Below, piece by piece: positions 11,581-36,930 of a DNA stretch of 64,000 nucleotides. The DNA lies in NCBI RefSeq assembly GCF_000376865.1, contig NZ_AQXQ01000011.1, positions 186,001-250,000 on the forward strand, written 5' to 3'. This DNA is from Thioalkalivibrio sp. ALJ7 (lineage in GTDB: Bacteria > Pseudomonadota > Gammaproteobacteria > Ectothiorhodospirales > Ectothiorhodospiraceae). How positions within the stretch are numbered: position 1 is the first letter of the stretch; every line of letters begins with the position of its first letter. The notes beneath the pieces were generated by a model. It was not told where the DNA came from and searched no databases. It saw nothing but the letters and a program-made list of their open reading frames with translations. A program made the translations under genes and the position numbers.

Positions 11581-11602
11581 TCCCATTGAAGGACCACTAG
11601 CC

Positions 11603-13516: not shown

Positions 13517-13529
13517 AGGCACTGGACGC

Positions 13530-14900
13530 ATGAGCGAAGCCTTCCGCCAAAAGGAACTGTTGCCGCAGCCCGACTGGCCGTTACGGATGCCTCAGACGCT
13601 GGCACGGCATCTGTTGTGGCCATTGCATGAAAGGCTGCGCGGGCGTGAGACGCCCGTCCACTTGCGTGCCTTACAGCGGGGCGAGCGCGCCGGTGGGACA
13701 TGGCTGTCGCACGAACACACGAACAAGCTGGAAGCCCTTCTCGCGCACTGCGCGGCCAACGTTCCCTACTATCGCGAGATCCTGGCGGGGTCGCCCCCGG
13801 ACCTTGAAGCGTTTTCGGTGCTGGAGCGGGACAGCGTGCGCGAGCGCGGGCGCGAGTTGCTGGCCGACAACGCTTCTGGCCCCTTGCTGCCCTCCAGTAC
13901 CGGCGGCTCCACCGGGCGGCCGCTGGTGTTCTGGTCGGATCGCGTGAAAGAAGCGCGCCACAACGCGCAGAAGCTCCGCTTTCGCGGCTGGTTTGGCATC
14001 CGCCCGGGCGATCGGCAGGTGGATTTTTGGGGCTCGCCGATCGAACTGAGCAAGGCCTCGCGCATGCGCGTCATCAAGGATCGCTACTTCCTCAACCAGG
14101 TCGTGCTGTCGGCGCACGACCTGACGCCGGAACGTTTGGAGGCCTATGTGCGCTTCCTTGGCCGTTTTCGCCCTCGGCTCGTGTACGGCTATCCGACCGT
14201 GATCGTGCGCGTGGCTCAGACGTTCGAAGCGAATCCGGGCCTGGCACGTGGCTGGCGCCCACAGGTGGTGGTCTGTACCTCGGAGATGCTTTACCCGCAG
14301 GTGCGTGAACAAATCGCGGGCATCCTGCGGTGTCCGGTCGCCAACGAATACGGCTCGCGCGATGGTGGACTGGTTGCGCACGAGTGCCCGCACGGGCGCC
14401 TGCATATCGCCACCGAGCATGTGCATGTGGAGGTCGATCAGCCCGACGAAGACGGCATTGGGGACCTGCTAATCACCAACCTGGATGGCTATAGCATGCC
14501 ATTCGTACGCTACCGTGTGGGTGACCGCGGACGCCTGGGTGATGGTGCGGACTGCCCCTGCGGCTCGCCACTGCCCACGCTGGATCGGTTGGAAGGACGG
14601 CGCAACGACTTCCTGGCCGGGTCCGAGGGGCGTCGGGTGCACGGGTCCGCCGCCAACTACGTGATGCGCGAGATGCCGCAGGTTGCGCAATACCGGCTGG
14701 TGCAGCGCGCCGACCTAAGCCTGGATATCGAGGTGATCGCAAACGGTCCCTGGGGCGAGGCCGAAACCCGGGCGGTGACGCGGGGTATGCAGGGCATCCT
14801 GCATGCCGAGGTGCCGGTGCGGTTGAAGCTCGTGGACCACATCGCGCCGTCCCCGTCCGGCAAGTACCGCTGGGTCGAGAGCGAGGCCCTGGAATCGTGA
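13530..14900 (+). CDS. PaaK/CapK-like adenylate-forming enzyme
   Basis: 456 aa from ATG 13530; an earlier in-frame ATG at 13491 would overlap the amidotransferase. The phosphate-binding loop is SSTGGSTGRPLVFWSD. NEYGSRDGGLVAHEC and the DGYSMPFVRYRVGDRG adenylate motif follow, then a Cys-rich CPCGSPLPTLDRLEGR as in phenylacetate-CoA ligases. CapK-like members occur in capsule and exopolysaccharide loci, where they probably activate a carboxylic acid. The substrate is unknown. The GTG of the next gene overlaps its stop. Confidence 0.85.
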   Translation: MSEAFRQKELLPQPDWPLRMPQTLARHLLWPLHERLRGRETPVHLRALQRGERAGGTWLSHEHTNKLEALLAHCAANVPYYREILAGSPPDLEAFSVLERDSVRERGRELLADNASGPLLPSSTGGSTGRPLVFWSDRVKEARHNAQKLRFRGWFGIRPGDRQVDFWGSPIELSKASRMRVIKDRYFLNQVVLSAHDLTPERLEAYVRFLGRFRPRLVYGYPTVIVRVAQTFEANPGLARGWRPQVVVCTSEMLYPQVREQIAGILRCPVANEYGSRDGGLVAHECPHGRLHIATEHVHVEVDQPDEDGIGDLLITNLDGYSMPFVRYRVGDRGRLGDGADCPCGSPLPTLDRLEGRRNDFLAGSEGRRVHGSAANYVMREMPQVAQYRLVQRADLSLDIEVIANGPWGEAETRAVTRGMQGILHAEVPVRLKLVDHIAPSPSGKYRWVESEALES

Positions 14901-20568: not shown

Positions 20569-21987
20569 CTACAGGTCGCTGAACAGGCGGCCGTGGCGGC
20601 GTTCGAGCTCGGTGGGCAGGTGGCAGGTGCCGGCGGAGTACTGGATGGCGCCCACGTCGGCGCGACCCTGGCGAGGTTGCCCGCAGAAGTCGTGCTCGAC
20701 TCGGGGTGGTTCCGAGCCCGAACCCAGCGGACGGGCATCCGGCTCGTCCAGTCGCAGGTCGCCCAGCCCGGGCGCCAGGAGCCAGCGCTCCATGGGTGCA
20801 TGGCGTTGTCCCAGGAGGCTGTTGTGTGCCCAGTCGGCCGTACCCTCGATGGCCGATTGGGTCCAGCGCGCGATGCGCTCGGGAATCCAGCTGGGATAGC
20901 GTTCCTGGTAATAGCCGATCCGCTGGATCAGTTCGTCGCGCAGCCCTGGCACGTAAGCGGCGGTGTCAAACCAGCCAGTGGCGACGTTGCCTTCGGTCTC
21001 GAGCTCGGCGTCGTCGCGCGCCCATACGGTGCCGGTGATCAGATTGTCCACCACTGTCGCACGCGTTTCCGGGAAACGACCCTGGATGCCGTAGGCGTTG
21101 AACACCGTATTGTTGGCGACCAGTGCTCCCTCGGCGCGATTCAGGTAAAGCCCCGGTTCCTGCGGACAGTTGAGGATGATGTTGTTGGTCATCTGGCTGT
21201 TCACGCTTTCCGGACAGGTCTCGCAATCCCCGATCTCGCGCCGGTCCAGAACACCGGGGCTAGTGCCACCCCCACCCAGCGACAGCCCAATGCGGCGCTG
21301 GCCCGTGTGGCGCCACTCGCAGATGACTAGGTTGCGGTCGAATACGGCGTTCGCCGCGCCGCCCTTTGCGAACCCCGGCGAGCCATGCCGGCCTGGCGTG
21401 CCCTGCGCAATGTCGGCGATAAAGTTTTCCTCGATTCGCCAGCCTTGTCCGCCGACAATATCAATGGCGACAACCGGCCATCGAGTGGTGTGGATGGCAT
21501 CGTTCACGAACACGTTACGGCGGATCTGCACATGGTCCGGAAAACGCCTTGGGTCACCCTCGCCGTTGGCCTTGATCGCCGCGTGAAAGTTACGAAAGCG
21601 GTTGCCCTCGACCAGGACATGATCGGCTTCGCGCACGATGTGCAGGGCGTGGTTGCCGCCGCCATCCCCGCGAAAGTCCAGATCGCGGATCTCCCAGTGG
21701 GGCGCAAACAGTTTGATCGCGGTGCTGTGGCGGGAATGAATCACCGCCGTCCCGGGGATGCTCGCGCGCAGCACGATCGGCTCGGCCTCGGTGCCGGGCT
21801 CCCGCAGGTTGATACGACGCTCCAGCTGGTAGTCGCCCGGGCGCAGTTCAATCACGCCACCCGCACTGGCCTGAGACAGGGCGCGTTCCAGTTGTGTCGC
21901 ATCCGAAACCAGGCGCGATTCAGCCCCGGCGATCACGGGCAGGCACATGGCGACGAGCGCTAGGGCAACACGGACTAGTGTACGCAC
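20569..21987 (-). CDS. Exported right-handed parallel beta-helix protein
   Basis: 472 aa from GTG 21987, which gives a good signal peptide (RTLVR, then VALALVAMCLPVIAGA, cleavage before ESRLV). The frame stays open for another 312 bases upstream, but that DNA is a MITE-like repeat. The mature protein opens with GGVIELRPGDYQLERRINLR. It then shows repeated N-x-hydrophobic coils (VEGNRFRNF, IRRNVFVND, IEENFIADI, FDRNLVICE, MTNNIILNC, VANNTVFNA), typical of PL6/C5-epimerase-like beta-helices. Likely a periplasmic or surface polysaccharide lyase or epimerase; the substrate is not evident. The element end at 21962-21991 encodes its start codon and first eight residues. Confidence 0.8.
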   Translation of the reverse strand: MRTLVRVALALVAMCLPVIAGAESRLVSDATQLERALSQASAGGVIELRPGDYQLERRINLREPGTEAEPIVLRASIPGTAVIHSRHSTAIKLFAPHWEIRDLDFRGDGGGNHALHIVREADHVLVEGNRFRNFHAAIKANGEGDPRRFPDHVQIRRNVFVNDAIHTTRWPVVAIDIVGGQGWRIEENFIADIAQGTPGRHGSPGFAKGGAANAVFDRNLVICEWRHTGQRRIGLSLGGGGTSPGVLDRREIGDCETCPESVNSQMTNNIILNCPQEPGLYLNRAEGALVANNTVFNAYGIQGRFPETRATVVDNLITGTVWARDDAELETEGNVATGWFDTAAYVPGLRDELIQRIGYYQERYPSWIPERIARWTQSAIEGTADWAHNSLLGQRHAPMERWLLAPGLGDLRLDEPDARPLGSGSEPPRVEHDFCGQPRQGRADVGAIQYSAGTCHLPTELERRHGRLFSDL

Positions 21988-22261
21988 TCCCGCTCGAGTC
22001 GTTTTTGCTTGCGAACAAGGCGCGGCGACCGCCGTGCAGTCATCCTGCACAAGGAAGCCGCAACGCCGTGCGCGCGCCCGTTTTTGATAACAACGGGCGG
22101 CCGAGCCCCGTCTTTCAATCGCTTGTGGGGGTTGGTGCCCCAGGTTCCCCGATCCTGCGTCGTGCCACTTGCGAGTAGAACTACTACCCGCTGCGTCGCG
22201 CACCTTCCCTCGGAAAGCCTGGGGTGCCAACGCGAGTGTGTACACTAATCCGTGTTGCCCT
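21962..22261. mobile_element. MITE-like element, copy A
   Basis: About 300 bp with terminal inverted repeats of about 30 bp: the left end starts AGGGCAACACGGACTAGTGT, and the right end on the complement starts AGGGCAACACGGATTAGTGT. Just inside the left end is CGCTCGAGTCG; just inside the right end is CGGAAAGCCTGGGGTGCCAA. Both blocks recur almost unchanged in copy B (41648-41928). It encodes no transposase. No clear target duplication is seen; flanking GCGCT occurs on both sides but is offset by four bases. It separates two divergent genes and overlaps the start of the beta-helix gene. Confidence 0.75.
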
Positions 22262-22327
22262 GGATAGCGCGCGCTCCTGCGTATTGCATGGTTCGGCATG
22301 AACGGTCCTCCCGTTTCCTCTGGCCGG

Positions 22328-23777: not shown

Positions 23778-24035
23778 TCAGCGGTTCTCGGCCTGTTTGG
23801 CCTCTACGAACGCCACCAGCGAACCCACCGTGGCAAAAAGCTCCGCGCAGACCTCATCGTGCTCGATGCGGATGTCAAAGCGGTCCTCCATTGCGGCGAC
23901 CACGTAGGCCACGGCCATGGAATCCAGTTCCGGCACATCCCCCATCAACCGAGTGTCCGCATCGAACCCTCGCGTGCGTCCGCCCAGTTCCAACTCGGCC
24001 TCGAGCATGTCCAGTACGTCCTGCTGAAGGCTCAT
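23778..24035 (-). CDS. Acyl carrier protein, XrtA-associated type
   Basis: 85 aa from ATG 24035 with Shine-Dalgarno CGGAGGTG. An acidic four-helix ACP with phosphopantetheine-attachment motif PELDSMAVAYVVAAME (Ser in LDSM). ACPs of this kind normally accompany the XrtA acyl-CoA ligase and PLP decarboxylase, here encoded about 26 kb away at 49736-52810. In this genome it is the last gene of a five-gene minus operon and overlaps the ATP-grasp fusion gene by 4 bp. It probably carries an acyl or aminoacyl group for polysaccharide decoration (inference). Confidence 0.85.
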   Translation of the reverse strand: MSLQQDVLDMLEAELELGGRTRGFDADTRLMGDVPELDSMAVAYVVAAMEDRFDIRIEHDEVCAELFATVGSLVAFVEAKQAENR

Positions 24036-25846
24036 TGCGCACCTCCGGATTTTGCTGCGCCGATCCCGGCCAATGCCTCCACACAGGGGCGCAGCCCCTC
24101 CAGGCATTTGGTCACAGCTTCCATGCCTTCACCGTAGGGGTCGCGGATCTGCTGGCCGTCGCGGGCGAACCGGCCATCCGGGTGCAGGGTGCCCAACAGG
24201 TACGTGCGTCTGGCCGCTTCGGGGAACTGTTGTTGCATGCGCACTCGGTGCAGCCGGTCCATGATGAAGATGAGATCAGCTTGCTGGACGATCTCGTGGT
24301 CCAGCCGTTGCGCCCGATGCGCCTCCAGGGAAATGCCCAATCGCTCCGCGGCAGCACGCGCATCCGGATGCGCGGGATTGCCGTCTTCGGCGCACAGCCC
24401 GGCAGACCGAATCGTGATCCCGGAAGCGTTTCCGCGTTCCGCAACGATCCGCTCCAGCCAGGCGGCTGCAAACGCGCTGCGGATGATGTTGCCATGGCAG
24501 ACAAACACCACCGAGCGTGCCGCTCGAATCGTCTCTGCGTCGGGTGCCTGGGGCTTGCTGCGTAGTCCCAGCGCGGCATAGCGAACCACGCCCACGGCGC
24601 CGAGTCGCATGATCGGGCGTAGTGCGGCGTACCAGCGCCACGGCAATACGCGCCGCGCGACCTTGTTCCAGATCTGCGCGCTCACCTGCCGGATGGCGCG
24701 GCCGAGATCCTCCAGTGCGGGTAGTGGATCGCGCCAGCTCCACAAGGCATCGCGGGTGTGGGGCGACACGAAATCCCAGGCGAATGTCCCGAAATCCGCC
24801 GCGGCCCGCCGGGCCGGGTACTCGCGGCCCAGTGCGGCGGCCGCCGCCTCCGGAAGGCGCAGCACGTCCCCCGCGAGCCAGCGCATCCGCCGACCCGGCG
24901 CATAGCCCTTTGGCTCGGGTGTCTCCCCATGTGCCAGTTGCCACTGGTACCACGGAAACTCAACCCCGCACTGCAAGGGCAGCGCGATGGAGCCCCAGTA
25001 GCGCCCGTTGATCTCCATCAGCGCCGTACGCCCAGTGTCGGGATCCTGGCGAAACTCCACCATCGCCACGCCCTCCCACCCCAAGGCGCGCAGCAACCGC
25101 AGCGAGTGGTCCAGGAGTTTCGGATCGGGCGTCTCGCCCAGGCAGCGGGCCGCAACACCCCCCGCGACCGGATACTCCTTCAGGCGCCGATGCTGGAAGG
25201 TCGCAACCGGCTCGCCGTCATGCATTAGCACCTCAATGCCAACCCCGTGCCCCGGCACAAACTCCTGCAGCATCCAGGCATCCCCGGAACGAAAGTGCGA
25301 GGCCATCAGCTTGTCGAGCGTATCCCGATCCTCCAGGTAGCGCAGGCGCAGTGCCGTCTCCCGGCCCTTGTCCGCCGGCTTCACGATAGCCGGAAAACGG
25401 AACCCCTCCAGCGTCGCGCCCAGACCATCCTGACTCGTCAGCACGCACGTCTGCGGGATCGGCACGCCTGCCGCTTCCGCGGCTTCCAGCGTCTTGCCCT
25501 TGTCCAGCACCTTGCGGAACGTCTCCGCCGGTGGGCAGAGAAGGTGCACTTTGGAGCGCCACTCCTCCTCGTGCAGCGACAGTGCTGACAGCACCTCGTC
25601 CCCCGTCGGGATAATCGTGTCTACCCCAAATTCTTCGATGACGCGCTGCAAGTCCTCCCGAAAAAGCTCGGGCGACAGGGTTGGCGGACGAAGATAGCAG
25701 TAACCGGAAAGCGACCGAGAGCGCATCTCTGGCGTGCCCGGCATTAGTGAGGCCGCGACCACGGGAATGCCGTGCATCGCGAGGCATTGGGTCAGCGGAA
25801 TTACGACACGCGGCGTGGCGCCGACTATCAGCGTGGTATTCGTCAT
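24032..25846 (-). CDS. ATP-grasp / low-molecular-weight protein-tyrosine-phosphatase fusion
   Basis: 604 aa from ATG 25846. Residues 1-310 are an ATP-grasp ligase: N-terminal LIVGATPRVVIPLTQCLA, then FPAIVKPADKGRE (ATP lysine), WMLQEFVPGHGVGIEVL and ALMEINGRYWGS (Mg-binding Glu/Asn). Residues about 310-440 are a linker with little similarity. Residues 445-600 are an LMW-PTP: CHGNIIRS at 450-457 (C-x5-R) with the general-acid DPYG at 569-572. Ligase and phosphatase active sites both look intact. The PTP could reverse the BY-kinase encoded at 1523; the ligase substrate is unknown. Overlaps both neighbours by 4 bp. Confidence 0.85.
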   Translation of the reverse strand: MTNTTLIVGATPRVVIPLTQCLAMHGIPVVAASLMPGTPEMRSRSLSGYCYLRPPTLSPELFREDLQRVIEEFGVDTIIPTGDEVLSALSLHEEEWRSKVHLLCPPAETFRKVLDKGKTLEAAEAAGVPIPQTCVLTSQDGLGATLEGFRFPAIVKPADKGRETALRLRYLEDRDTLDKLMASHFRSGDAWMLQEFVPGHGVGIEVLMHDGEPVATFQHRRLKEYPVAGGVAARCLGETPDPKLLDHSLRLLRALGWEGVAMVEFRQDPDTGRTALMEINGRYWGSIALPLQCGVEFPWYQWQLAHGETPEPKGYAPGRRMRWLAGDVLRLPEAAAAALGREYPARRAAADFGTFAWDFVSPHTRDALWSWRDPLPALEDLGRAIRQVSAQIWNKVARRVLPWRWYAALRPIMRLGAVGVVRYAALGLRSKPQAPDAETIRAARSVVFVCHGNIIRSAFAAAWLERIVAERGNASGITIRSAGLCAEDGNPAHPDARAAAERLGISLEAHRAQRLDHEIVQQADLIFIMDRLHRVRMQQQFPEAARRTYLLGTLHPDGRFARDGQQIRDPYGEGMEAVTKCLEGLRPCVEALAGIGAAKSGGAQ

Positions 25847-27555
25847 GTGGTGTCGCCATCTCCCGTACGGTCGGCTTTCCTGACGGCGCGTTCCAGAAGG
25901 CTGATTGTAAGCATGCCTCCGAGGCAGTCGATGCCAGCTTGTCCCAGGCGGTTGCCTGACTGAGTGGGCATCCGCGCACCCTTGGTGCCGAGACAGCTTT
26001 CCAGCCATTCCGAGTCTGAAAGAGCGGTCGCCGCCGCACTTCGAAAACTCTGATCCCGTCGGGCGATACGGGCGAAATTGCCCTCCGGGGGCTGAAGGAA
26101 GGGTCGGCCGGGCCAGGCTCTGTCGAGCAGGGGGCGCAACTGGCGAGCGATCGCCTTGCCACGGGAGCGGGGCCTGGGGTCCAGAAGGGGCAGGCCGGTC
26201 TTGTCATACGGGATCGCGGCCAGGTTCGGGTCCAGCCGGTGGATGATGCGGCGATAAAGCCAGGAGCCTCTGCGAAGTTCCCAGGGGAGGCGCAGGGCAA
26301 AGTCCATCAGTTGATGGTCGAGTGCCGGGGTGCGGACATCCAGGTAGTTTTGATTCAGGCGGACGATGTTGTACACGAGGCGGCGACTCCGGTTCTCGAG
26401 GTAGTGCAGCTGGCTGGCATCCAGCCCTGCATCCGCACTCGGATACTCCTCGCGGATATAGTCGGTTAGCAGGGAAACTTCTTCGCTCTCGGCGGAAAAA
26501 CCAAGCGCCTTCGCGTTGTAGCGCATTCGTGCCAGTTGCCCTTCGATCTGAGCCTCCCGCGACTGATCACGCAGGAAGGTCGCCTTGAACAGCAGGTCCT
26601 GCAGGAAGCCGTCGATTGTTGCCGTGGAACCCGTTTCCGTGAGCCGCCGTGCGGTGCCAACCAGCCGCCAGTGGGCGATGTTGAAATCGCCCGGGCCCAG
26701 TGCCGGATCGAAGGTAGCCGCGTGCCGCATGCCTTCAGCCGAGTCGAACCGCTCGATCGGGCGGCCAAGGTAACGGCCGATCTTCCGGGCGTAGGGCCAC
26801 TCGACATTGCCAAGGTCGTGGCAATGGAACAGGCGGGCCCGCTGGCTTAGCTCCGGGTGCAGGGCAAGGTTGCAGCGCGAATCCAGCCCGGCCGTGACGG
26901 GCATTGCCACCGCGGAGGCCTCCAGGCCCGCCGCGCCAGCCTGGTGCGCAGATGCGAGTCGCTCGGCTGCCTCGTCCAGCCAGGGCTCGATGGGCCCGGT
27001 GGGTGCTGTGGACACGGGTGGAGGCGACCAATAGCGGGTACAACGCGGTGCCAGGCCCGGATTCGCGAAATGGCAACGACTGGCAGGAGGGAGGAGTGAA
27101 ACCCCCTCCAGCAGGGTCCGGTTGCCCCAGGGATTGTCCAGGAAGATGGTGGAGAGGGCTCCGATTCGGTCCGGCCCCGGTGTGCGGGGCATCAGGGCTG
27201 CCAGATCGGTCAGGCGGGAGGCGAGCCAGGTTCGTCCGTCCTGAATCGCCCAATGAACCGGAATGGCCCCGATACGATCCGAGACTACCTCCACACCTTC
27301 CGGTCCCCAGAGAATCTCAAGCCAGGAGCCGTCGCGCCTCTCGGGGAGTTCCGCTTCCGCAGCGGGTAGGTGGTGTTCGTGTATGAGGATGCCGCTGCTG
27401 CGTAAGCGCGCGAGACGGTAGGTCTTGTGACGGCTATGGATGCGCAGGTGGATACCGTTTTCAGCGATGGTGAGCCATTCGTTCGGCTCCGCCGGATCGT
27501 TCCAGGGCCCGTAGGCGGAGCCCTGCATCCCAAACACCCCCTGCAGGATCAGCAT
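25843..27555 (-). CDS. Asparagine-synthetase-like protein without catalytic Cys2
   Basis: 570 aa from ATG 27555; ATG 27528 (MQGSAYG, better spaced from CAGGGGG) is an alternative. The N-terminal half keeps a glutaminase-like fold (DRIGAIPVHW, RLTDLAAL) but does not start with Met-Cys, so ammonia from glutamine is unlikely. The C-terminal half has a divergent PP-loop, VTAGLDSRC in place of SGGxDS, and late motifs LNQNYLDVRTPALDHQLMDFA. Similar proteins act as amide- or lactam-forming adenylating enzymes in other pathways (family knowledge). The substrate here is unknown. It overlaps the ATP-grasp gene by 4 bp. Confidence 0.8.
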   Translation of the reverse strand: MLILQGVFGMQGSAYGPWNDPAEPNEWLTIAENGIHLRIHSRHKTYRLARLRSSGILIHEHHLPAAEAELPERRDGSWLEILWGPEGVEVVSDRIGAIPVHWAIQDGRTWLASRLTDLAALMPRTPGPDRIGALSTIFLDNPWGNRTLLEGVSLLPPASRCHFANPGLAPRCTRYWSPPPVSTAPTGPIEPWLDEAAERLASAHQAGAAGLEASAVAMPVTAGLDSRCNLALHPELSQRARLFHCHDLGNVEWPYARKIGRYLGRPIERFDSAEGMRHAATFDPALGPGDFNIAHWRLVGTARRLTETGSTATIDGFLQDLLFKATFLRDQSREAQIEGQLARMRYNAKALGFSAESEEVSLLTDYIREEYPSADAGLDASQLHYLENRSRRLVYNIVRLNQNYLDVRTPALDHQLMDFALRLPWELRRGSWLYRRIIHRLDPNLAAIPYDKTGLPLLDPRPRSRGKAIARQLRPLLDRAWPGRPFLQPPEGNFARIARRDQSFRSAAATALSDSEWLESCLGTKGARMPTQSGNRLGQAGIDCLGGMLTISLLERAVRKADRTGDGDTT

Positions 27556-27592: not shown

Positions 27593-29140
27593 TCATCGTG
27601 AAGATGAGGCGGTATCCGGGCCGAACAGCTGATGGTTACCCGTCAGCTTCATTGCCCAATGGCGTTTGATGATCTTGCGCTCGACGGCCATTTCCAGTCC
27701 CCGGGTTTCCGCGCCGAGTGGTCGCCCGGACAAGAACCAGAGCGCCAGCAGAACTAGTGCGTAGGTCGCGATCCCTAACGGGATCAATACGACGAGCTGA
27801 AGGGCTCCCGTCGCGCTGCTGGTCAGTTCGGGCAGGGCCCTCTCTGTCGCCAGCAGGACCCCTAGCATCGCAATCGACGCGGCGACCGGGCGCCACACGA
27901 CTGCGAAGAAGTCCTTGCCCTGCATTTGTAGGAAGTGCGAGACCAACATGACACCGAAAGGCAGGAGCAGGGTCGAGGCGATTACTTTTGACCAAACTGC
28001 CACCTCCAGCCCGTAGCCCGCCCACAGCAGATAGCCCATCAGGGGCAGGGTGATCAAGACATCGGCCAGGACAAAGATCCCGACCCAGTAGGGCTTGTTG
28101 AGTGCCATGAACAGCGAGAAGCGGTTGCCGTGCAGGATGCGCGTGGCGCCCAGGATGGCGAGCACCTGGACCAGCGGGATGGTGACAAGCCAGTTTTCGC
28201 CCAGAAGCAGCCAAATCAAAGGTGCCGCAACACCGACCATGCCGAGGGCGGCGGGTACGGTGAGCAGGGTGACCATGCCCTGCGCCAGCAGGTATCCGCG
28301 GCGTAGCCGCGGCAGATCGTGAGAGACCTTGGCAAAGCCCGGGAACACGGCGCGCATGATGGGGGCATAGAGTTCGGAACTGGGCAGTTTTGCGATGTCG
28401 CTTGCGACGCGATAGGCCCCCAGACCGGCGGCGCCCTCCAGGCGGCCGACGATCCAGTCCGGGCCCCGGCCTTGCCCGTACATGGCCGCGTTGTTGAAGG
28501 TGATCCAGGCAGAGAAGCCAATCAGGTCACGCCACCCGGAGAGACTCAGCCGGGGGCGGAACGGGTGCATGCCGTAGCTGAGTGACAGGCCGACAATCGC
28601 CGATGTCAGGGAGCCGAGGACCAGGGCCCAGTAACTTTGCAAGTAGAAGGCCATGGCAATCGTGACCACGACGGCCGAGGCCTTCTTGCCAAAGCCGAAC
28701 AGGAACTCCTTGCGGAAGGTCAGCTCCTTGCGGAAGGCCACAATGCCGATGTTTTCGAAGCCGTGCAGGAACGAGATCGCGGCGAAGGCATAGACGATCG
28801 CTTCCACCCGCCCATCGTCGAAGAAGGCGGCTGCATGGGGCGCAGCCAGGATCAGTGCCAAAGCCCCTAGGGACTGGTAGATGAGCTTGATGGTCCAGGC
28901 GGTATCGTAGTGGCGGCGTTCGGCCTTCTGGTCCCGGATTAGTGCAAGGTCCAGCCCGAACGCACCAATCATTTCGACCAGGGCATAGAGCGCAAAGGCC
29001 ATGGCCACCAGGCCGAAATCTTCCGGCACCAGGATGCGCGCCAGAATGACGGTGCTGATCAGCCCCATGAAACGCTGAAAGGTGCGCAGCCCCATCATCC
29101 AGGCGGCGCCACTGGCCACCTTGTTGCCGAGATCCTTCAA
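27593..29140 (-). CDS. Polysaccharide flippase (Wzx/MATE-like)
   Basis: 515 aa from a TTG start (29140) after GGGGAG; no nearby ATG fits. Begins KDLGNKVASGAAWMMGLRTFQRFMGLIST, typical of Wzx/RfbX exporters, with about 12-14 membrane segments throughout. It would flip lipid-linked oligosaccharide across the inner membrane. It is the only flippase in the window and so is a good candidate for exporting the XrtA-locus repeat unit, although it lies in the tailoring module. It sits 37 bp before the asparagine-synthetase-like gene and 23 bp after the QueC-like gene. Confidence 0.88.
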   Translation of the reverse strand: MKDLGNKVASGAAWMMGLRTFQRFMGLISTVILARILVPEDFGLVAMAFALYALVEMIGAFGLDLALIRDQKAERRHYDTAWTIKLIYQSLGALALILAAPHAAAFFDDGRVEAIVYAFAAISFLHGFENIGIVAFRKELTFRKEFLFGFGKKASAVVVTIAMAFYLQSYWALVLGSLTSAIVGLSLSYGMHPFRPRLSLSGWRDLIGFSAWITFNNAAMYGQGRGPDWIVGRLEGAAGLGAYRVASDIAKLPSSELYAPIMRAVFPGFAKVSHDLPRLRRGYLLAQGMVTLLTVPAALGMVGVAAPLIWLLLGENWLVTIPLVQVLAILGATRILHGNRFSLFMALNKPYWVGIFVLADVLITLPLMGYLLWAGYGLEVAVWSKVIASTLLLPFGVMLVSHFLQMQGKDFFAVVWRPVAASIAMLGVLLATERALPELTSSATGALQLVVLIPLGIATYALVLLALWFLSGRPLGAETRGLEMAVERKIIKRHWAMKLTGNHQLFGPDTASSSR

Positions 29141-29163: not shown

Positions 29164-29979
29164 TTAGTAGCCGCGCAGTTTGCGTTTGCACCAGCGCTTG
29201 AAGCGGTAGCCTCGTGGCAAATGCTCCAGGGCGCTGACAACGCCGCCGTTGAACCGGGCTCGCCACGGTAAGCGATCGCCGACACCCTTGGAAACGACCA
29301 TCCGGCATGGCACGCAGAATCCGCAGGGTTGGCCGGAGCGCGTGGGCATATGGCAGAACCAGGTCTGCTCGAGAAGGTCCAGGAACCCATGCTTTTTTGC
29401 GTATTCGCGCATTTCGGCCTTGCCAATATGCAGGGTTGGAAAGCTGAACAGGTTAAACAGGCTTTCCGGGGTGGCTTCATCCAGCGCTGGGTGCACCGGC
29501 TTTAGCCGGTACTCGCGCCGGCCTTGCGTCAGGTCCGGGTCCAGGAAGAAAAAGTCCTCGTTGTATTGCACGCAGACCTCGATACCCTGCAGGTCGTGCT
29601 GGCGGACCAGTTCGGCCAGCCAGATGTACTGTTCGCCAATGCCTCGCGTGCGCACCAGTTCGGCGTATTTCTGCCGAAGTTCGGGGTCGGGTTCCGTGGT
29701 TTGGGCGCTTAGCACTTGCAACTCGCCCAGATGCCCATGGCTCGCGCGTTGATTGATTAGCTGGCGGAGCCGATCCATTACCTGGGTTTCCTGCTCAAGG
29801 GACTGTCGAGTCTCGTCGCGCACGTAAACGGGCGCGATCGACTCCCCGTGGTGCAGCACCAGGTCGAGGACACGGAAGGTGGAGTCCCAGCCGCCGGTCC
29901 AGAACACGACACGGCGTGGTTGGCGCTCCGCTTCGGCATGCGCCACCGATATGGCCCTTGTGGCCGTGGGTTCCTGCAC
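29164..29979 (-). CDS. QueC-like PP-loop protein 1
   Basis: 271 aa from GTG 29979 with strong SD GGAGGAG. The PP-loop is WTGGWDSTF (residues 27-35), a variant of SGGxDST. A C-terminal zinc site has Cys209, Cys219, Cys222 and Cys225 (C-x9-C-x2-C-x2-C), the layout of 7-cyano-7-deazaguanine synthase QueC. The basic tail (residues 226-271) is extra. Queuosine synthesis is unlikely to be its job, because the gene heads a surface-polysaccharide operon and a paralogue lies 1.3 kb away. An amide- or nitrile-forming ATP-dependent modification is plausible (inference). Confidence 0.8.
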   Translation of the reverse strand: MQEPTATRAISVAHAEAERQPRRVVFWTGGWDSTFRVLDLVLHHGESIAPVYVRDETRQSLEQETQVMDRLRQLINQRASHGHLGELQVLSAQTTEPDPELRQKYAELVRTRGIGEQYIWLAELVRQHDLQGIEVCVQYNEDFFFLDPDLTQGRREYRLKPVHPALDEATPESLFNLFSFPTLHIGKAEMREYAKKHGFLDLLEQTWFCHMPTRSGQPCGFCVPCRMVVSKGVGDRLPWRARFNGGVVSALEHLPRGYRFKRWCKRKLRGY

Positions 29980-30139
29980 CGCTGCTCCTCCGGGGGTGAG
30001 GCCTAATAACGCCCCTGCTGTCGAGTCGCTAAGCCCGCACTGTATGATCCGCTTACTGTAATGCAGCTGGCCACCACGATTGCCTGATGCGCGCGGCCCT
30101 CCGTCTGCTGAGCGTTACTTGGAATAGCGAGGTATCGCA

Positions 30140-31258
30140 TTGAAGCTGAGTTTTGTTGGCGACGTTCGCCTGATTTCGGATCGGACGGCAACTCCGGGGG
30201 CTTTGCCTTCGAGCCCGTTCGATCGAGTGCAACCCCTCTTGGGTGATCCGGATGTGCTAAGCGGTAATCTGGAATGCTTTTTCACCCATGACCTGACAAA
30301 TGAGCAGGGGCACTGGAAACACGCCAAGGTCCTTCGGGCTGATCCAGCCATGTGCAGCACCCTGGTGGATGCCGGATTTGATGTCGTTAATCTGGCCAAC
30401 AACCACATCATGGACGGTGGTCCTTATGGTCTGGAGGAAACGATTCAGACTCTGGATCGTCACCGCTTGCCTTGGATGGGGGCAGGACGTTCCTTCCATG
30501 AAGCGGTTGCTCCCACATTGGTCGAGCGCCAGGGGAAGGTCATCGCTTTCCTGTCGGCTGGTGATAACTCCCATGACTATGCAGCGAGCGATGGTCCCGG
30601 TGTGGCCCCCATGGAGCCATTTGATGATCTTCTGGCCCGTACCCGGCAAGCTTCGAAGAGCGCTGACCTTGTCGTGGTCCAGCTGCATGCGGATCTGGAG
30701 TTCAGCGAAGCACCCGCCCCTTATCGCGTACGACTGAGCCGGCAGTTGATCGACCATGGCGCCCACCTGGTCATCCAGCATCATCCGCATGTGGTGCAGG
30801 GCGTCGAGGAATACGGTGGCGGATTGATCGCGTATTCGTTGGGGAATTTTGTGTTCAACGTGCACGGGAATTCCTATCAAAGTGGCTATCCCGAAGCGCG
30901 CTACGGATGGATCTTGTCGGTGGATGTCGACCACGGAGCGGAGGGGCCACGGGTGCGCGGCTGGAACATGGAGCCGGTCTGGATTGCCGAGGACCATCGT
31001 CCGGAGCCACCCAGCCCGGAGCGCCGAGAGGAGGCTCTAGTGGAGTTTCGCCGCCGTTGCGATTTGTTGAAAAATGATCGTGCCATTCGGCGCGCCTGGC
31101 GCCACCGGAGCTGGCGCGAGGCGCGCTACCACGCGCTGATGGCCTACTACAAGACGCGGCGGGGCAAACCCCTCGCCGCGATGGGTGACCTGATCGATCT
31201 ACCCCTTCGACCGCGCAATCGACATTGGATCCTCGGGTTCCTCGGCTTGAGTCGGTAA
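30140..31258 (+). CDS. CapA-like metallophosphoesterase-fold protein
   Basis: 372 aa from TTG 30140 (GAGGTA upstream); no ATG or GTG in reach. Motifs of the CapA/PgsA family are all present: FVGDVRL, GNLECF, LANNHIMDGG, HADLEF, HHPHVVQGVE and YSLGNFVF, which hold the metal ligands. There is no signal peptide or membrane anchor, unlike secreted CapA of poly-glutamate capsules, so it is probably cytoplasmic. The C-terminal 90 residues are basic and family-specific. It lies between two QueC-like genes, divergent from one and convergent with the other. Confidence 0.82.
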   Translation: MKLSFVGDVRLISDRTATPGALPSSPFDRVQPLLGDPDVLSGNLECFFTHDLTNEQGHWKHAKVLRADPAMCSTLVDAGFDVVNLANNHIMDGGPYGLEETIQTLDRHRLPWMGAGRSFHEAVAPTLVERQGKVIAFLSAGDNSHDYAASDGPGVAPMEPFDDLLARTRQASKSADLVVVQLHADLEFSEAPAPYRVRLSRQLIDHGAHLVIQHHPHVVQGVEEYGGGLIAYSLGNFVFNVHGNSYQSGYPEARYGWILSVDVDHGAEGPRVRGWNMEPVWIAEDHRPEPPSPERREEALVEFRRRCDLLKNDRAIRRAWRHRSWREARYHALMAYYKTRRGKPLAAMGDLIDLPLRPRNRHWILGFLGLSR

Positions 31259-31301
31259 GCGGACGCCGGGGGTGTACGTTCGGTGAGGTGGCGGAGTAGG
31301 T

Positions 31302-32111
31302 TCAGGCTTCTTTCTGGCTTCTCGCCGCGGCCCGAGCCTCCTGAGATTGCCGAATCCGCCAGCTAACGGCCCTGGGTAGCAGGCGGATGGGGCGTTCAAT
31401 CAACCAATAGCGCAGCTTGCCGCGCCATCCCACTCGTTTGGCTTCACCCTTGCGTTCGAGCATCAAAACGCACGGTCGGCAGGTCCCGCACGGATGCATC
31501 CCCGAGAGGGGCGTATGGCAGAAGCAGGTCTTGGCGAGAGGGCCCTTCCAGCCCAGTTCCTTCGCTTGTTTTCGGAGTTCCAGCGGACCGCGTCGTGCTA
31601 GCGGAAGCGAGTAGTGTGCGAAGAGGACCGAGACATCCCCTGCGTCGCGTTCCACTGTCATGGTGGGGCAGCCGTCGATGTTCGATTCAATGAGGTGGTC
31701 TTCCAGGACAGCGGCGATACGATCCCCCTGGACGATTCCGATTTCGATTCCATCAAGGCCTTCGGCCTTCACGAGCATCGCTAGCCAGCGATACTGGTTA
31801 CCGACCCTGTGGCTTCGCATGATCTCCTGGAAAGCGTCGTCAATGGTCTCGTCATGCGGGATGGCCTCGCGTTGATGCGTCATAAGGGGCTGTATTCGCC
31901 CCGCTTCTGCGAAGCCCTCTTCGATCAGAGCCCGGCTGATCCGCTTCATGGTCAGGATTTCCATACCAGACGAGCGTCGACGCGGGTCAATTACGTAGTG
32001 CGGCTGGATAGGCCGGTCCGTGAGGTGCAGCAGTTCCATCACGCGGAAGGTCGAGTCCCAGCCGCCGGTCCAGAAAATGTCAATTGGCTCGTCGCTGTTG
32101 GTGGCGCTCAT
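31302..32111 (-). CDS. QueC-like PP-loop protein 2
   Basis: 269 aa from ATG 32111. PP-loop FWTGGWDSTF (residues 13-22) and Cys198, Cys208, Cys211, Cys214 repeat the pattern of the protein encoded at 29164, with YRWLAMLVKAEGLDGIEIG aligning to YIWLAELVRQHDLQGIEVC in the first copy. The middle differs strongly, so the two are old paralogues rather than a fresh duplication, and perhaps act on different substrates or as a heterodimer. Its 3' end faces the CapA-like gene across 43 bp; its start diverges from the ATP-grasp gene at 32254. Confidence 0.8.
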   Translation of the reverse strand: MSATNSDEPIDIFWTGGWDSTFRVMELLHLTDRPIQPHYVIDPRRRSSGMEILTMKRISRALIEEGFAEAGRIQPLMTHQREAIPHDETIDDAFQEIMRSHRVGNQYRWLAMLVKAEGLDGIEIGIVQGDRIAAVLEDHLIESNIDGCPTMTVERDAGDVSVLFAHYSLPLARRGPLELRKQAKELGWKGPLAKTCFCHTPLSGMHPCGTCRPCVLMLERKGEAKRVGWRGKLRYWLIERPIRLLPRAVSWRIRQSQEARAAARSQKEA

Positions 32112-32253
32112 GGGCTTTTCTGGATTCTCACTGGGTGAACGGGTAGGTGCTGACGCGATGCGTATAGCGAGGAAACGCGAAGCCCGCACTTTCTTCGTGT
32201 TTTGTATAGGCTAGATCCTAGAGCATTTCTGCCGGCTATCAACGGAGGATTAC

Positions 32254-33309
32254 GTGAAAATTGCTATACAGCCGGATGCCGTGATGCACCCAAGTGGCGA
32301 GCGGCAGTCGTATTCCGAGCAATGGGAGCGTTATGCCGACCAAAAGGGTGTCGAAACTGTCCGGGTGGACGTTTGGGGCCCTGATGTGCTGGAGCGGATT
32401 CGTGAATGCGATGCGTTCATGTGGCGATGTATGCCGTCATTGAAGGAGCGTTCCCGCGCGGCAGCGTTGCTGCATGCAGTGGAGTTTGGTCTGAACCTTC
32501 CGGTATTCCCTTCGTGGAATACGCGCTGGCATCTGGAGGACAAGGCGCTGCAGGCCCAAATGTTCGAGGCGATGGATCTGCCTCATCCCCTCACCTGGCT
32601 TTTTCACGACCGCGACCGGGCGCTCGACTTCGTCCGGCGCGCCAACTATCCGTTCGTCCTCAAGCTTGCATCGGGGATTCGCTCCGGGGCTGTCCGGCTC
32701 GTGGAAAACCTGCAGCAGGCCGAGCGCCTGGTGGATCGGTTGTTCGGCGAAGGGTTGTACTGGGTGGACCTGCCCCCTTCGGGAGGGATCAACGAAGCTC
32801 TTCGCCGTGGAAGGCGGGCGATTGGCGCCCTTCGCGGGCGTAACGTTGATGCCCCCTCTGATGAACGCGAGCTGCACCGGGGATACTTTTTGGCCCAGGA
32901 GTTTGTTCCGAATAACGATTTTGACACGCGGATTGCCGTCGTTGGCAATCGGGCGTTCGGTTTCAGGCGCCTCAATCGCCCTGATGATTTCCGGGCAAGC
33001 GGTAGTGGACAGGTCGATTGGGACCCTGCCAGGATTGATGCGGAGCTTGTGAGGATGGCTTTCGACATCAGCCGGCGACTTCAGGCCCAAACGGTGGCTT
33101 TTGACTTCATCAAAAAAAATGGGAAACCACTGATTCTTGAACTGACCCTGACGTATGCCACTTGGGCCGTGAATCGATGTCCCGGCTTCTGGTGGCAGGA
33201 AAGCGCCGACGCCGATCCAGTTTGGTGCGATCAGAGTGTGCGAGTCGAACAGGCATTGTTCGATGATTTCGTCCAGGGCTGCCACCCGGAAGGCGGCGTT
33301 GCGCAATGA
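32254..33309 (+). CDS. ATP-grasp protein (RimK-like)
   Basis: 351 aa from GTG 32254 behind a good SD (CGGAGGAT). ATP-grasp features: YPFVLKLASGIRSGAVRLV (ATP-binding Lys and loop), FLAQEFVPNNDFDTRIAVVG and AFDFIKKNGKPLILELTL (metal-binding acidic residues). The C-terminal WAVNRCPGFWWQ is unusual. RimK-type enzymes form amide bonds between a carboxylate and an amine. Next to the QueC-like pair it suggests an aminoacyl or amide modification of a sugar or precursor (inference). Confidence 0.78.
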   Translation: MKIAIQPDAVMHPSGERQSYSEQWERYADQKGVETVRVDVWGPDVLERIRECDAFMWRCMPSLKERSRAAALLHAVEFGLNLPVFPSWNTRWHLEDKALQAQMFEAMDLPHPLTWLFHDRDRALDFVRRANYPFVLKLASGIRSGAVRLVENLQQAERLVDRLFGEGLYWVDLPPSGGINEALRRGRRAIGALRGRNVDAPSDERELHRGYFLAQEFVPNNDFDTRIAVVGNRAFGFRRLNRPDDFRASGSGQVDWDPARIDAELVRMAFDISRRLQAQTVAFDFIKKNGKPLILELTLTYATWAVNRCPGFWWQESADADPVWCDQSVRVEQALFDDFVQGCHPEGGVAQ

Positions 33310-33349
33310 GTGACCGCTTGCCGCCCATAATGCGAAATGGGACGGCCCT

Positions 33350-34462
33350 ATGACGCGAATCGTATTTGTTGGCGACGATCCCAAGGCGCGGCAGTTCGTC
33401 GAAGCACTTCGCCAGTATGGTCGAGATGCCGAGGCTTGGGGCACCTATCCGTTTACGGCCTGGAAACATCTGCTCGCGAGGCGGGGTGTTTCTCGGGGAG
33501 ACGTGATCGTGATTCGGTATCTCAATGACAATCCCTCTTGGTTCGTCTCCATCGGCAAGCCCTTTGGCGATGTTCTGACACTCCTTGTTGCCCGCGTCCG
33601 GGGTATACGCGTCTATTGGCTTTGTCACAATCTGGACCGAGAGACGGAGAGCTACTGGCCCTTGATCAGTTCATTGCGTCGATGGCTATACGCCCGCCAG
33701 GCCGAGGCGATTGCGATCACCGATCCGGCATTGATGGCTGCAGCGCCGGCGGTTTTCGGACGCCACCGGCACAAAGTTTTTCCCATGTCAATGGGGCTTT
33801 TGCCGAAGCGCCGCCGTTTCAATAAGCCTGAGCTCGAGGAACAAGTTCGAAACTTCTTTGGCCGCGATCCAGCCTGCAAGCATCAGCTGAACATCCTGTG
33901 CGCTGGCGTATCCGGCCCCAAGTACCTGCATTTTGACCTGTTACCGGTGCTGGAGGAGCGTTTGCGGCAGCTGGGCTGGAGCCCGCGTATAGCAGTAGTC
34001 ACTCGGTTTCTCAGGAAGGGCGAGTGGTCCAGAGGAAAGAATTACCGCTCCTTCATCGATTGGTGTGAAAAGACCCCATCTGTGCTTTTGGTGAAACGCT
34101 ACATCGACCTCGATGAGTCGGAATGGACCGACGATGTGGATCTGATCTGGCGCGCCATGGGGGATTGGTCATTCGCTTTTACGTTGCTCAACGCGGCCAG
34201 AGCTAGGATCCCGGTGTTAGCCTTTGACAGCGGGGGGGTCGGGGCTATCGTGCGGCAGGAGAAGATCGGGGCAACCGTTGCTTGGGACTTTTCGAACCTG
34301 GGCGAAGCGGTTCAAACAGCGCTTAGAACGCCTAGCGAGAACTACGAGACGTTTCTGGCTCAGCGCTCCTGGTCGAAGGCGGCACAGTCCATATCGGATG
34401 CGATCGACCATGGCGGCGCCAAGACGCCTCTGGCCGAGGCAAGCCGGTCGTTGGAGTCCTGA
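33350..34462 (+). CDS. GT-B-fold glycosyltransferase-like protein
   Basis: 370 aa. TRIVFVGDDPKARQFVEALR and GIRVYWLCHNLDRETESYW form an N-terminal Rossmann half. AGVSGPKYLHFDLLPVLEE, LLVKRYIDLDESEW and VLAFDSGGVGAIVRQEKIGATV resemble the donor-binding half of GT4-like enzymes, but the usual E-x7-E is replaced. It is called glycosyltransferase-like on fold and context. It lies 40 bp downstream of the ATP-grasp gene; its stop is 4 bp from the convergent GT2 stop. Confidence 0.6.
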   Translation: MTRIVFVGDDPKARQFVEALRQYGRDAEAWGTYPFTAWKHLLARRGVSRGDVIVIRYLNDNPSWFVSIGKPFGDVLTLLVARVRGIRVYWLCHNLDRETESYWPLISSLRRWLYARQAEAIAITDPALMAAAPAVFGRHRHKVFPMSMGLLPKRRRFNKPELEEQVRNFFGRDPACKHQLNILCAGVSGPKYLHFDLLPVLEERLRQLGWSPRIAVVTRFLRKGEWSRGKNYRSFIDWCEKTPSVLLVKRYIDLDESEWTDDVDLIWRAMGDWSFAFTLLNAARARIPVLAFDSGGVGAIVRQEKIGATVAWDFSNLGEAVQTALRTPSENYETFLAQRSWSKAAQSISDAIDHGGAKTPLAEASRSLES

Positions 34463-35499: not shown

Positions 35500-36930
35500 T
35501 TAGCGTAACCGGCCAGGGTCCATGATCGTCCCGCCTGTCTCGGACGGGGTGCCGGAAGACTTCGGGGTTTCCGCTTTCGGCTCCACTGTCTGCGGCGCGC
35601 GGGCTTGCTGCACAGGGGCGGCGATTGGAACCGCTTCCAGAAGTTCGCGGCGCAGCACGATCGCCATGGCGATAAAGGCCAGGTAGAGATCGAAATAGGC
35701 CAGGCTCAGGAAGGCGCCGGCGACCATGTAGCCGATCAGGCCGATGGCGAGTGCCCATGCCCACTCGGCAATCCAAAGGGTTTCGTCCCGCTGACGCCCT
35801 TCACGGCTCAGGCGGAAAAGGGTCAGCAGGCTGAAACCGAGCAGCATCAGGAACAGCGCGAGCCCAATGAAACCGTGCTCGCCGAGCATCTGGAAGTAGA
35901 TGCTATGTACGGCGATTGGCCCACTAACGACCGGGTTCTCGCGATCCAGGTAGCTGAGCCAGATCTCGGGGGGCAGACGCTGGATGCTCATGCCGGAGCC
36001 GGTGAGAGGGTAATCCACCGCCACATTCCACGAGACGTTCCACGCATCGAAGCGCCCGCCCGCGGACGCATCTTCTTCGTAGTTGACGAGGGTGTCGATC
36101 TGGTGCTCGATCTTGTCGGGGACCGTAACGCCGACCACAACGATCGCCAGGAGGCCGGTCGCGATCATGGTTCCCTTGTAACGCATCTTCAGGAAGATGA
36201 GCGGGAAGGTGATGGCCAGGGCGACCCACGCGCCCCGAGAATGGGTGCCGATGATCGAGATCAGGTGGAACCAGAAACCCAGGTACAGCCCCAGCCCGAT
36301 CAGCTTGTGGAAGCGTTCGTAAAGCGGGAAGTGAAAGGGCAGCTCGAAGCGCCCCTGGTACACCTGGCGCGCGAGGACCAGCACCAGCGGGAGGGTCATG
36401 ACGAGTGCCAGACCGATATCCGTATTGCCACGGACAAATGATCCCGGTGGTCCCAGCACCATGCCACCAAACCCGCTCGCGAGCGTGTAAGGCCCACCCT
36501 TGAAACCGAAATAGGCGATGGAAAGCGTGATCACCGCCAGTACGGCCATGGTTCGGACTTTGCCAAAGACCAGCATGGGCGCGATCAGCGTGAACAACAT
36601 GATCTTCATCACGGTGTCCCAGCGCTGAAGGGCGACCTCAGGCTGCCAGGCGAAGAACAAAGAGATCGCGGTGATGTGCCCGAACAGGAGGATCATCAAC
36701 ACGCTTTCCCGAGTGAACGGGAGCGCGCGCCGGTCCTTGTTCAGTACGAGCGCCACCAGGGTGGCAATCCCGACCGCCATGGCGACCGGCATTGTCTGGA
36801 TGAACCCCCAGGCGAGGCGATGGGGGTTCATCAGCCCTACCCAGTACCACATGGCGATACCGACCCATGGCCGCCACAGGATGAAGGGCAGCGAGCCGAA
36901 GATCAGGAGAGCGAAGACGATATCGCGCAT
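35500..36930 (-). CDS. Putative O-glycosylation/O-antigen ligase, XrtA-associated
   Basis: 476 aa polytopic membrane protein. The start MRDIVFALLIFGSLPFILWR and VGLMNPHRLAWGF are signatures of the exosortase-A-associated ligase family (TIGR03097 type). The Wzy_C region includes GTHSRGAWVALA and a large periplasmic loop (residues about 270-340) with SGMSIQRLPPEIWLSYL. It has about 11-12 membrane segments and a Pro/Lys-rich cytoplasmic tail. It is thought to transfer the polymer to a protein or lipid acceptor; the acceptor is unproven. 36 bp separate it from the deacetylase gene. Confidence 0.9.
   Translation of the reverse strand: MRDIVFALLIFGSLPFILWRPWVGIAMWYWVGLMNPHRLAWGFIQTMPVAMAVGIATLVALVLNKDRRALPFTRESVLMILLFGHITAISLFFAWQPEVALQRWDTVMKIMLFTLIAPMLVFGKVRTMAVLAVITLSIAYFGFKGGPYTLASGFGGMVLGPPGSFVRGNTDIGLALVMTLPLVLVLARQVYQGRFELPFHFPLYERFHKLIGLGLYLGFWFHLISIIGTHSRGAWVALAITFPLIFLKMRYKGTMIATGLLAIVVVGVTVPDKIEHQIDTLVNYEEDASAGGRFDAWNVSWNVAVDYPLTGSGMSIQRLPPEIWLSYLDRENPVVSGPIAVHSIYFQMLGEHGFIGLALFLMLLGFSLLTLFRLSREGRQRDETLWIAEWAWALAIGLIGYMVAGAFLSLAYFDLYLAFIAMAIVLRRELLEAVPIAAPVQQARAPQTVEPKAETPKSSGTPSETGGTIMDPGRLR

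Follow-up and report, generated by a model that had tools for sequence, protein, structure and literature searches.

What are two QueC-like enzymes doing in a locus for surface glycans? The question is posed by a 64,000-nucleotide stretch of the Thioalkalivibrio sp. ALJ7 genome (contig NZ_AQXQ01000011.1, positions 186,001 to 250,000; "the window" below, in whose own numbering coordinates are given), where genes for two PP-loop proteins resembling QueC, here called A and B, lie on either side of a gene for a CapA-type protein. The analyses described here show a relation of A and B to QueC, Cap9 and QatC, and place both in a diverged QueC-like group of PP-loop ATP pyrophosphatases whose members are uncharacterised. 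For their function, the best explanation available to us, which we hold with about even confidence when it is taken as a whole, is that this QueC-like group acts here in glycan assembly by activating a carboxylate for conversion to an amide.

Protein A (29164..29946, minus strand) has 260 amino acids when translated from the start favoured by the gene caller; its longest open reading frame (ORF) begins at 29979. Protein B (31302..32111, minus strand, 269 amino acids) is a diverged QueC-like paralogue that keeps the PP-loop and the cysteines, and it shares 33% identity with A across 242 aligned positions (E 1e-35). FWTGGWDSTF and C-x9-C-x2-C-x2-C are present in the two proteins just as a preliminary description of this DNA had read them. 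The window contains two instances of [ST]GGxDS followed in the same open frame by C-x8-10-C-x2-C-x2-C, and 50 triplet-block shuffles of it contain none. Against the Pfam QueC model (PF06508, gathering score 22 bits), A scores just above the threshold (23.8 bits) and B below it (11.4 bits). A and the CapA-type gene are divergent, and the CapA-type gene and B are convergent, so the three genes do not form one operon. Promoter-like and terminator-like sites did not exceed their frequency in shuffled sequence.

Motifs, conserved columns and the tree were derived from a set of 45 rows. These come from 40 sources: the window plus 39 loci (L006-L010, L061-L077, L100-L102 and L105-L118). The set includes near-identical rows; L103 and L104 were excluded as repeats of L102, and L004 and L005 as the same places as L074 (strain ALJT, G025) and L075 (T. 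halophilus, G012), both of the window's genus. WT[GS]G[WF]DS was found in 44 of the 45 rows, the exception being L110, whose frame starts downstream of the loop. The pattern C-x8-10-CxxCxxC was present in 43 rows (x8 in 27, x9 in 16), and the four cysteine columns are filled in all 45; A and B carry the x9 spacing instead of the canonical C(x)8CxxCxxC of this predicted metal site. Invariant across all rows are P50, Y52, R58, E64, Q117, P181, C209, P212, C219, G220, C222 and C225 (P0001 numbering). D32 and S33 are invariant in the 44 rows whose frame covers the loop, and their column count of 45 of 45 is overstated because the letters of L110 at these positions look fortuitous. Where a column is at least 85% conserved, A always carries the conserved residue, and B departs from it at F180, K187, M190 and W207.

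The preliminary description had called this arrangement the QueC layout. That term fits the fold and the cysteine site but not the remaining signatures of the enzyme: SGGxDS, YxQxHxxE, VPxRN and YPDC each occur in none of the 45 rows. A looser [VILM]PxRN is found in a single row (L109), upstream of the PP-loop and so by chance. The canonical motifs are those of PMC13329287, whose available text also gives mutational tests in which Y35, R99, Y131 and Y189 are essential in Escherichia coli QueC. At the position following the first cysteine, 9 of the 45 rows of our group have tyrosine, and A and B both have histidine. When the family profile was compared with chains of known enzymes, the matches were weak: QueC scored 22.4 bits, Cap9 12 bits and QatC 10.6 bits, with E <0.001 for QueC only. 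On the tree, A-type and B-type proteins form separate clades; the second copy of a Halorhodospira metagenome-assembled genome (MAG) falls outside the B group, and a single B-type clade that includes it is not rejected by the approximately unbiased test (p 0.11).

The predicted structure of A (predicted local distance difference test score, pLDDT, 86.3; predicted template-modelling score 0.82) was ranked with VIA-align 2 over Foldseek's best 1000 chains, with matches outside PP-loop enzymes set aside. The best fold match among these chains is the Cap9 structure solved with its protein substrate bound (9nto; Z 11.7 over 159 residues, 3.3 Å, 18% identity). QueC (Z 9.9, 3.8 Å), YcfA (Z 9.9, 3.3 Å) and TilS/MesJ (Z 9.6) come next, followed by QatC (Z 9.5, 5.7 Å) and LarE (Z 9.1, 3.4 Å); NcsA (Z 8.6), TtuA (Z 8.1) and ArtA (Z 8.0) stand lower in the list. 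The matches from QueC to LarE are tied, and they are evidence of a common PP-loop fold rather than of a function. By Foldseek itself, the top hit in the Protein Data Bank is again Cap9, at E 2e-3, with no hit reaching E 1e-3; the first-ranked viral model is that of an iridovirus "queuosine biosynthesis protein" (E 2e-8).

One scan of genome contigs yielded 26 pattern-matching stretches, among which 7 loci contain relatives. In the window's taxonomic family, full-length matches (>180 bits) occur in 12 of 47 genomes; at E 1e-3 the count is 14, the two additional matches being short (about 20 bits). In its class, 3 of 369 genomes, including its own, have full-length matches (at E 1e-3 there are 34, of which the additional 31 are short and score no more than 33 bits), and in its phylum 4 of 398, again including its own (E 1e-15). 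Relatives were also found in 7 of 247 genomes from the phylum of a Bacteroidales MAG, counting that MAG (E 1e-15, 171-285 bits), and in 10 of 201 genomes from the family of Halomonas korlensis, counting H. korlensis. Viral contigs contributed five loci with relatives, three of which hold the same fusion gene; in plasmids and annotated phages, tblastn of A found no relative at either E 1e-5 or 1e-3.

By their gene neighbourhoods, relatives are present in glycan loci of three phyla, several of these relatives adjoining ATP-grasp genes. An A-type gene occurs together with genes for a CapA-type protein, a Wzx-type flippase and an asparagine-synthase-like protein in four loci: the window, ALJT, T. 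halophilus and the Halorhodospira MAG (L006). The Wzx homologue adjoins A in L074 and L075 and adjoins the CapA-type gene in L006. CapA orthologues (>560 bits) are confined to 3 of the 47 family genomes, the same three that hold A, and are adjacent to it there; weaker CapA matches (47-91 bits) occur in 11 more. In Vreelandella (L007), a PaaK-like gene, a more diverged CapA gene (190 bits) and a family member stand in a row. The linkage to CapA on which the preliminary description had staked its proposal is thus conserved, in the three genomes and again in the Halorhodospira MAG and Vreelandella. Its picture of two QueC-like genes bracketing CapA holds for the window and does not extend to all relatives: B adjoins CapA in T. 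halophilus but sits elsewhere in the locus in ALJT, where nothing corresponding to window positions 31302-34462 (B, an ATP-grasp gene and a glycosyltransferase-like gene) stands at the same place, and the second copy in the Halorhodospira MAG falls outside the B clade on the tree, though its inclusion is not rejected.

ATP-grasp genes are an equally recurrent neighbour, with one cluster of them represented at seven loci (six of these near-identical) compared with five loci for CapA. In the six near-identical loci, all from the window's genus, the family gene has an ATP-grasp gene on one side and a PaaK-like gene on the other, all on one strand, and a UDP-sugar dehydrogenase gene is present as well; Pfam annotation was made for L067 only (ATP-grasp PF14397; the dehydrogenase lies in the same gene run) and carried to the others by clustering. 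In L064 and L067-L071 a homologue of the window's PaaK-like gene adjoins the QueC-like gene; in L007 one gene lies between the two. At L108:10747-16863, two tandem family genes have beside them four genes from a single ATP-grasp cluster, of which one was scanned. The neighbour in L105 is ATP-grasp-like by its similarity to a phage protein and by eye, without a Pfam match, and the searches made detected no ATP-grasp gene beside the L110 member. That phage protein (L102:3891-5660, the same in L103 and cut in L104) has a probable N-terminal ATP-grasp half fused to a QueC-like domain, and its gene is flanked by genes for a UDP-sugar dehydrogenase and a large terminase. The ATP-grasp assignment of this half relies on RimK at 18 bits (below the Pfam cut-off of 21), a PHROG match at 19.4 bits and the match to L105; its structural model was poor (mean pLDDT 58.6) and was not used.

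The gene between A and B (30140..31258, plus strand, 372 amino acids, TTG start) encodes a CapA/PGA_cap-type calcineurin-like protein (PF09587, 199.5 bits against a gathering score of 27, residues 2-240), with a C-terminal extension common to the homologues linked with A-type proteins. Its earlier description as a cytoplasmic-looking CapA-fold protein is borne out, since it has no hydrophobic segment by hydropathy (highest 19-residue mean 0.83) and its Pfam domain begins at residue 2. In this it differs from CapA/PgsA of poly-gamma-glutamate synthesis, which has a membrane anchor or signal peptide. The protein also aligns with the lasso-peptide epimerase MslH (8gq9): E44, N87, H88, D91, H259 and H295 of MslH correspond to E45, N88, H89, D92, H183 and H217, while the calcium ligand H261 aligns with D185 (residues and ligands from the available text of PMC10406935). 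Its score against the MslH family NF038314 is far below the cut-off (81.4 of 700 bits). With MslH as an analogue, our guess is that the CapA-type protein might perform phosphoester or epimerase chemistry.

NCBIfam matches of the window's genes identify the surroundings as an XrtA/PEP-CTERM exopolysaccharide locus, in agreement with their first reading as a surface-glycan region. The locus type is marked by exosortase A (XrtA; 8831..10387, plus strand, TIGR03109, 367 bits), and the locus also includes TIGR03087 and TIGR03088 glycosyltransferases, FemAB-type and deacetylase genes, an XrtA/PEP-CTERM system amidotransferase (11603..13516, plus strand; frame 11381-13516; TIGR03108, 1037.7 bits) and an O-glycosylation-ligase-type protein of XrtA systems (35500..36930, minus strand; TIGR03097, 387.7 bits). 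A PaaK-like adenylate-forming protein (13530..14900, plus strand; frame 13491-14900), which we take to be CapK-like, matches the DVU_1553-family AMP-dependent CoA ligase of NCBIfam at 84 bits (cut-off 300) and has no Pfam match. A chondroitinase-B-like beta-helix protein is encoded at 20569..21948 (minus strand, start from the gene caller; frame 20569-22299; PF14592, 32.5 bits, cut-off 24); judged from its sequence, it offers a hint that the polymer may contain uronic acid.

Nearer to A, on the minus strand, lie genes for an acyl-carrier-type protein (23778..24035, start from the gene caller; frame 23778-24107; PF00550, 21.3 bits, cut-off 20.8), a fusion of an ATP-grasp domain with a low-molecular-weight (tyrosine) phosphatase domain (24032..25846; frame 24032-26008; PF15632, 38.5 bits; PF01451, 80.8 bits), an asparagine-synthase-like protein whose annotated frame starts without a cysteine (25843..27555; PF00733, 20 bits, cut-off 21; macrolactam-cyclase subfamily, 30.3 bits, cut-off 300) and the Wzx-type flippase (27593..29140; PF13440, 220 bits). 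Divergent from B is a RimK-like ATP-grasp gene (32254..33309, plus strand; PF08443, 37.9 bits, cut-off 21; TIGR00768, 47 bits, cut-off 143.4). A probable glycosyltransferase gene (33350..34462, plus strand) has matches that are weak and all below cut-off. Elsewhere in the window, VanZ and Wzy_C domains share one frame in a 1192-amino-acid ORF (42959-46537); a 123-amino-acid ORF, presumably of the GxxExxY type from its look, lies between the FemAB gene and a glycosyltransferase gene (7177-7548); and PEP-CTERM-like C-terminal ends can be seen by eye at 39183-39992 and 17459-18019, near the exosortase locus.

How might A and B act in such a locus? Of the reactions considered for the group, ATP-dependent formation of an amide is the most plausible. 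Of the earlier proposal, an ATP-dependent amide or nitrile modification of a sugar or precursor, we retain the amide half. Amide formation on a carboxylate other than that of QueC is the most economical interpretation because the PP-loop aspartate and the cysteine site are kept and the other motifs replaced. In the mechanism we propose, ATP would bind at the T-G-G-W-D-S loop and a carboxylate on a glycan precursor would be adenylated, most likely that of a hexuronate borne by a nucleotide or lipid carrier, or of an attached amino acid. Ammonia or an amine would then attack the adenylate to give an amide. The ATP-grasp ligases of the locus could form a further amide bond, and the cytosolic CapA-type metalloenzyme may trim or epimerise the same intermediate before export by Wzx. 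B, which lacks a lysine found in 41 of the 45 rows, may be a partner subunit or a second-site enzyme. The setting suggests a glycan carboxylate as the substrate, as do the UDP-sugar dehydrogenases of L067 and L102 and the window's chondroitinase-B-like gene. We are more tentative, and would sooner bet against than for it, about a further proposal: that the group represents a third use of the QueC scaffold, as a glycan-tailoring carboxylate ligase that works with ATP-grasp and cytosolic CapA-type proteins to make amidated or amino-acid-bearing exopolysaccharides.

Several observations weigh against a glycan-directed amide ligase. To our knowledge, no activity has been described for any member of the group. 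By assigned labels, which are uneven because annotation depth differed between loci, 26 of the 45 rows lie in glycan loci, a count in favour of the reading, with 6 label changes on the tree; the other 19 lie outside evident glycan loci, so a glycan role may hold for part of the family only. These 19 comprise orphan genes of halomonads, L062, L063, L073, L076, L107, L100-L102 and L061, where a TIR-domain (CAP12/PycTIR-type) gene (10897-11799) adjoins the family member. The counts of neighbouring glycan and ATP-grasp genes are raw numbers, to which chance may contribute. Beyond the window's own genome, 13 of the 369 genomes of the class have CapA relatives scoring 100-132 bits, and none of these 13 has a full-length member of the group. 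No UDP-sugar dehydrogenase gene was found in the window, and the sole match over cut-off in its genome is on contig 10. Finally, the amide reading is not forced, because QatC, which also lacks the canonical motifs, is still proposed to deazaguanylate a protein (available text of PMC13329287); by analogy with QatC, loss of these motifs leaves nucleobase chemistry possible.

The strongest of the alternatives, which we nevertheless regard as unlikely, is modification of a protein or peptide in the manner of Cap9 and, as proposed, QatC, with a small carboxylate ligated to the N-terminus of a partner such as a PEP-CTERM or phage virion protein. The closest solved fold is that of Cap9 complexed with a protein substrate; a remodelled QueC site has been proposed to serve protein modification in QatC (PMC13279940); and two phage members follow a Laminin_G-type gene (in L101) and a carboxypeptidase/CBM gene (in L100). 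However, the motifs of Cap9 and the cysteine pattern of QatC are absent from all 45 rows, and no protein cluster adjoins the family gene across all branches of the group.

Less probable again is that A and B are general accessory or anti-phage genes merely carried in hypervariable glycan loci. The orphan members in halomonad chromosomes and phage contigs, and the member beside the TIR-domain gene, speak for this. The linkage of A, CapA, Wzx and the asparagine-synthase-like gene in four loci argues against it, as do the six loci of the genus in which the gene lies between ATP-grasp and PaaK-like genes on one strand; in addition, a PADLOC scan of A, B and the CapA-type protein gave no strong match to a defence family (best 13.1 bits).

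To sulfur transfer by a metal-bearing PP-loop enzyme, yielding a thioamide, thioacid or thiosugar, we assign only a small chance. It would accord with the close folds of YcfA, LarE, NcsA and TtuA, but the spacing of the four cysteines is QueC-like, and among the window genes scanned (a part of the total) none matched a sulfur-carrier or desulfurase family. Smaller still is the chance that a sugar or precursor is converted to a nitrile through two rounds of ATP use, the other half of the earlier proposal. QueC carries out both steps (PMC13329287), and the fold matches include ArtA, a nitrile synthetase of the PP-loop type, although many other PP-loop enzymes reach an equal or higher Z score. 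A nitrile made by the QueC route lacks positive evidence because the canonical motifs, which hold Y35, R99 and Y131 of the E. coli enzyme, occur in no row; the counterpart of Y189 is the position that is tyrosine in nine rows and histidine in A and B.

That A and B are housekeeping QueC copies for queuosine, for which their QueC-like cysteine site might speak, can be rejected with near certainty, since the window's own genome encodes a full canonical QueC on contig 9 (251 bits, with SGGxDS, YxQxHxxE, VPxRN and YPDC all present), as do 26 of 31 tested genomes bearing the group (at least 197 bits), and since no row has a canonical motif. Two PTPS/QueD-family matches of the same genome are on contig 12 and the window is on contig 11, so they are not neighbours (queE was not searched for); the preliminary description had named a queuosine pathway lacking its own QueC as grounds for abandoning its proposal, and that is not the situation here. 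All eight family-bearing genomes tried for the deazaguanine pathway have PTPS/QueD-family matches. In the remaining five of the 31 (G790, G793, G815, G902 and G913), no canonical QueC above 190 bits was found and PTPS/QueD-family genes are present; the lack of QueC is a point for the housekeeping reading. For G790 and G793, however, QueC may be missing from the assembly, since each is a MAG in which a short contig carries the member. A second QueC paralogue of a different type (L002; 107 bits) lies on contig 11 at 311042-311611, about 61 kb beyond the window, and has an SGGIESS loop in which the aspartate is replaced by glutamate; matches of 90-111 bits to this SGGIESS type occur in all 10 other tested genomes of the genus.

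QueC-like enzymes have recently been shown or proposed to act beyond queuosine, in CBASS and Qat systems, and further uses of the scaffold are an active question. If A and B are indeed carboxylate-activating enzymes of glycan assembly, the QueC scaffold would extend to sugar chemistry, beside nucleobase synthesis and protein deazaguanylation; the locus would be a place to look for what cytosolic CapA-type proteins do; and amide-bearing exopolysaccharides would be predicted. The available text of the 2026 QueC survey (PMC13329287) describes no such group and has no occurrence of polysaccharide, capsul-, CapA, ATP-grasp or glycan. Among the literature matches listed, drawn from a scope that mostly excludes subscription journals, none was recognised as describing QueC-like proteins with CapA or in exopolysaccharide loci.

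For the QueC-like proteins themselves, four known systems provide the closest comparisons. Canonical QueC (7-cyano-7-deazaguanine synthase) shares with the group its PP-loop fold and C-x8/9-C-x2-C-x2-C site but has SGGxDS in place of T-[GS]-G-[WF]-D-S, together with the three other motifs absent from the group, and A and B lie in an exopolysaccharide locus rather than among queuosine genes. According to PMC13279940, ATP serves QueC to activate a carboxylate, which then reacts with ammonia, and Cap9 uses a protein amine instead. Cap9, from type IV CBASS, is closest to A in fold, and its carboxylate-to-amine ligation is a model for the reaction we propose; it differs in its own motifs ([YF]xQ(x)5E, Y.DC and CE(x)6CxxCxxCxD, each in 0 of 45 rows) and in length, its chain of 191 residues being some 70 shorter than A. 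QatC of qatABCD (9y01, 9zee) likewise has a QueC-like scaffold without the canonical substrate-site motifs. It is about 400 amino acids long with extensions, compared with 260 for A, its C(x)19CGxCxxRR pattern occurs in none of the 45 rows, and A reaches 15.8 of 280 bits with the NCBIfam QatC model. The WbpG-type N-acetyl sugar amidotransferases (8wex), cluster 5 in the available text of PMC13329287, differ in their CxxC(x)6CxC pattern (0 of 45 rows) and rank low against A by Foldseek (25th, E 0.05). They are nevertheless PP-loop proteins annotated as adding nitrogen to a surface-sugar precursor, and as such they provide a precedent for the role that we propose for A and B.

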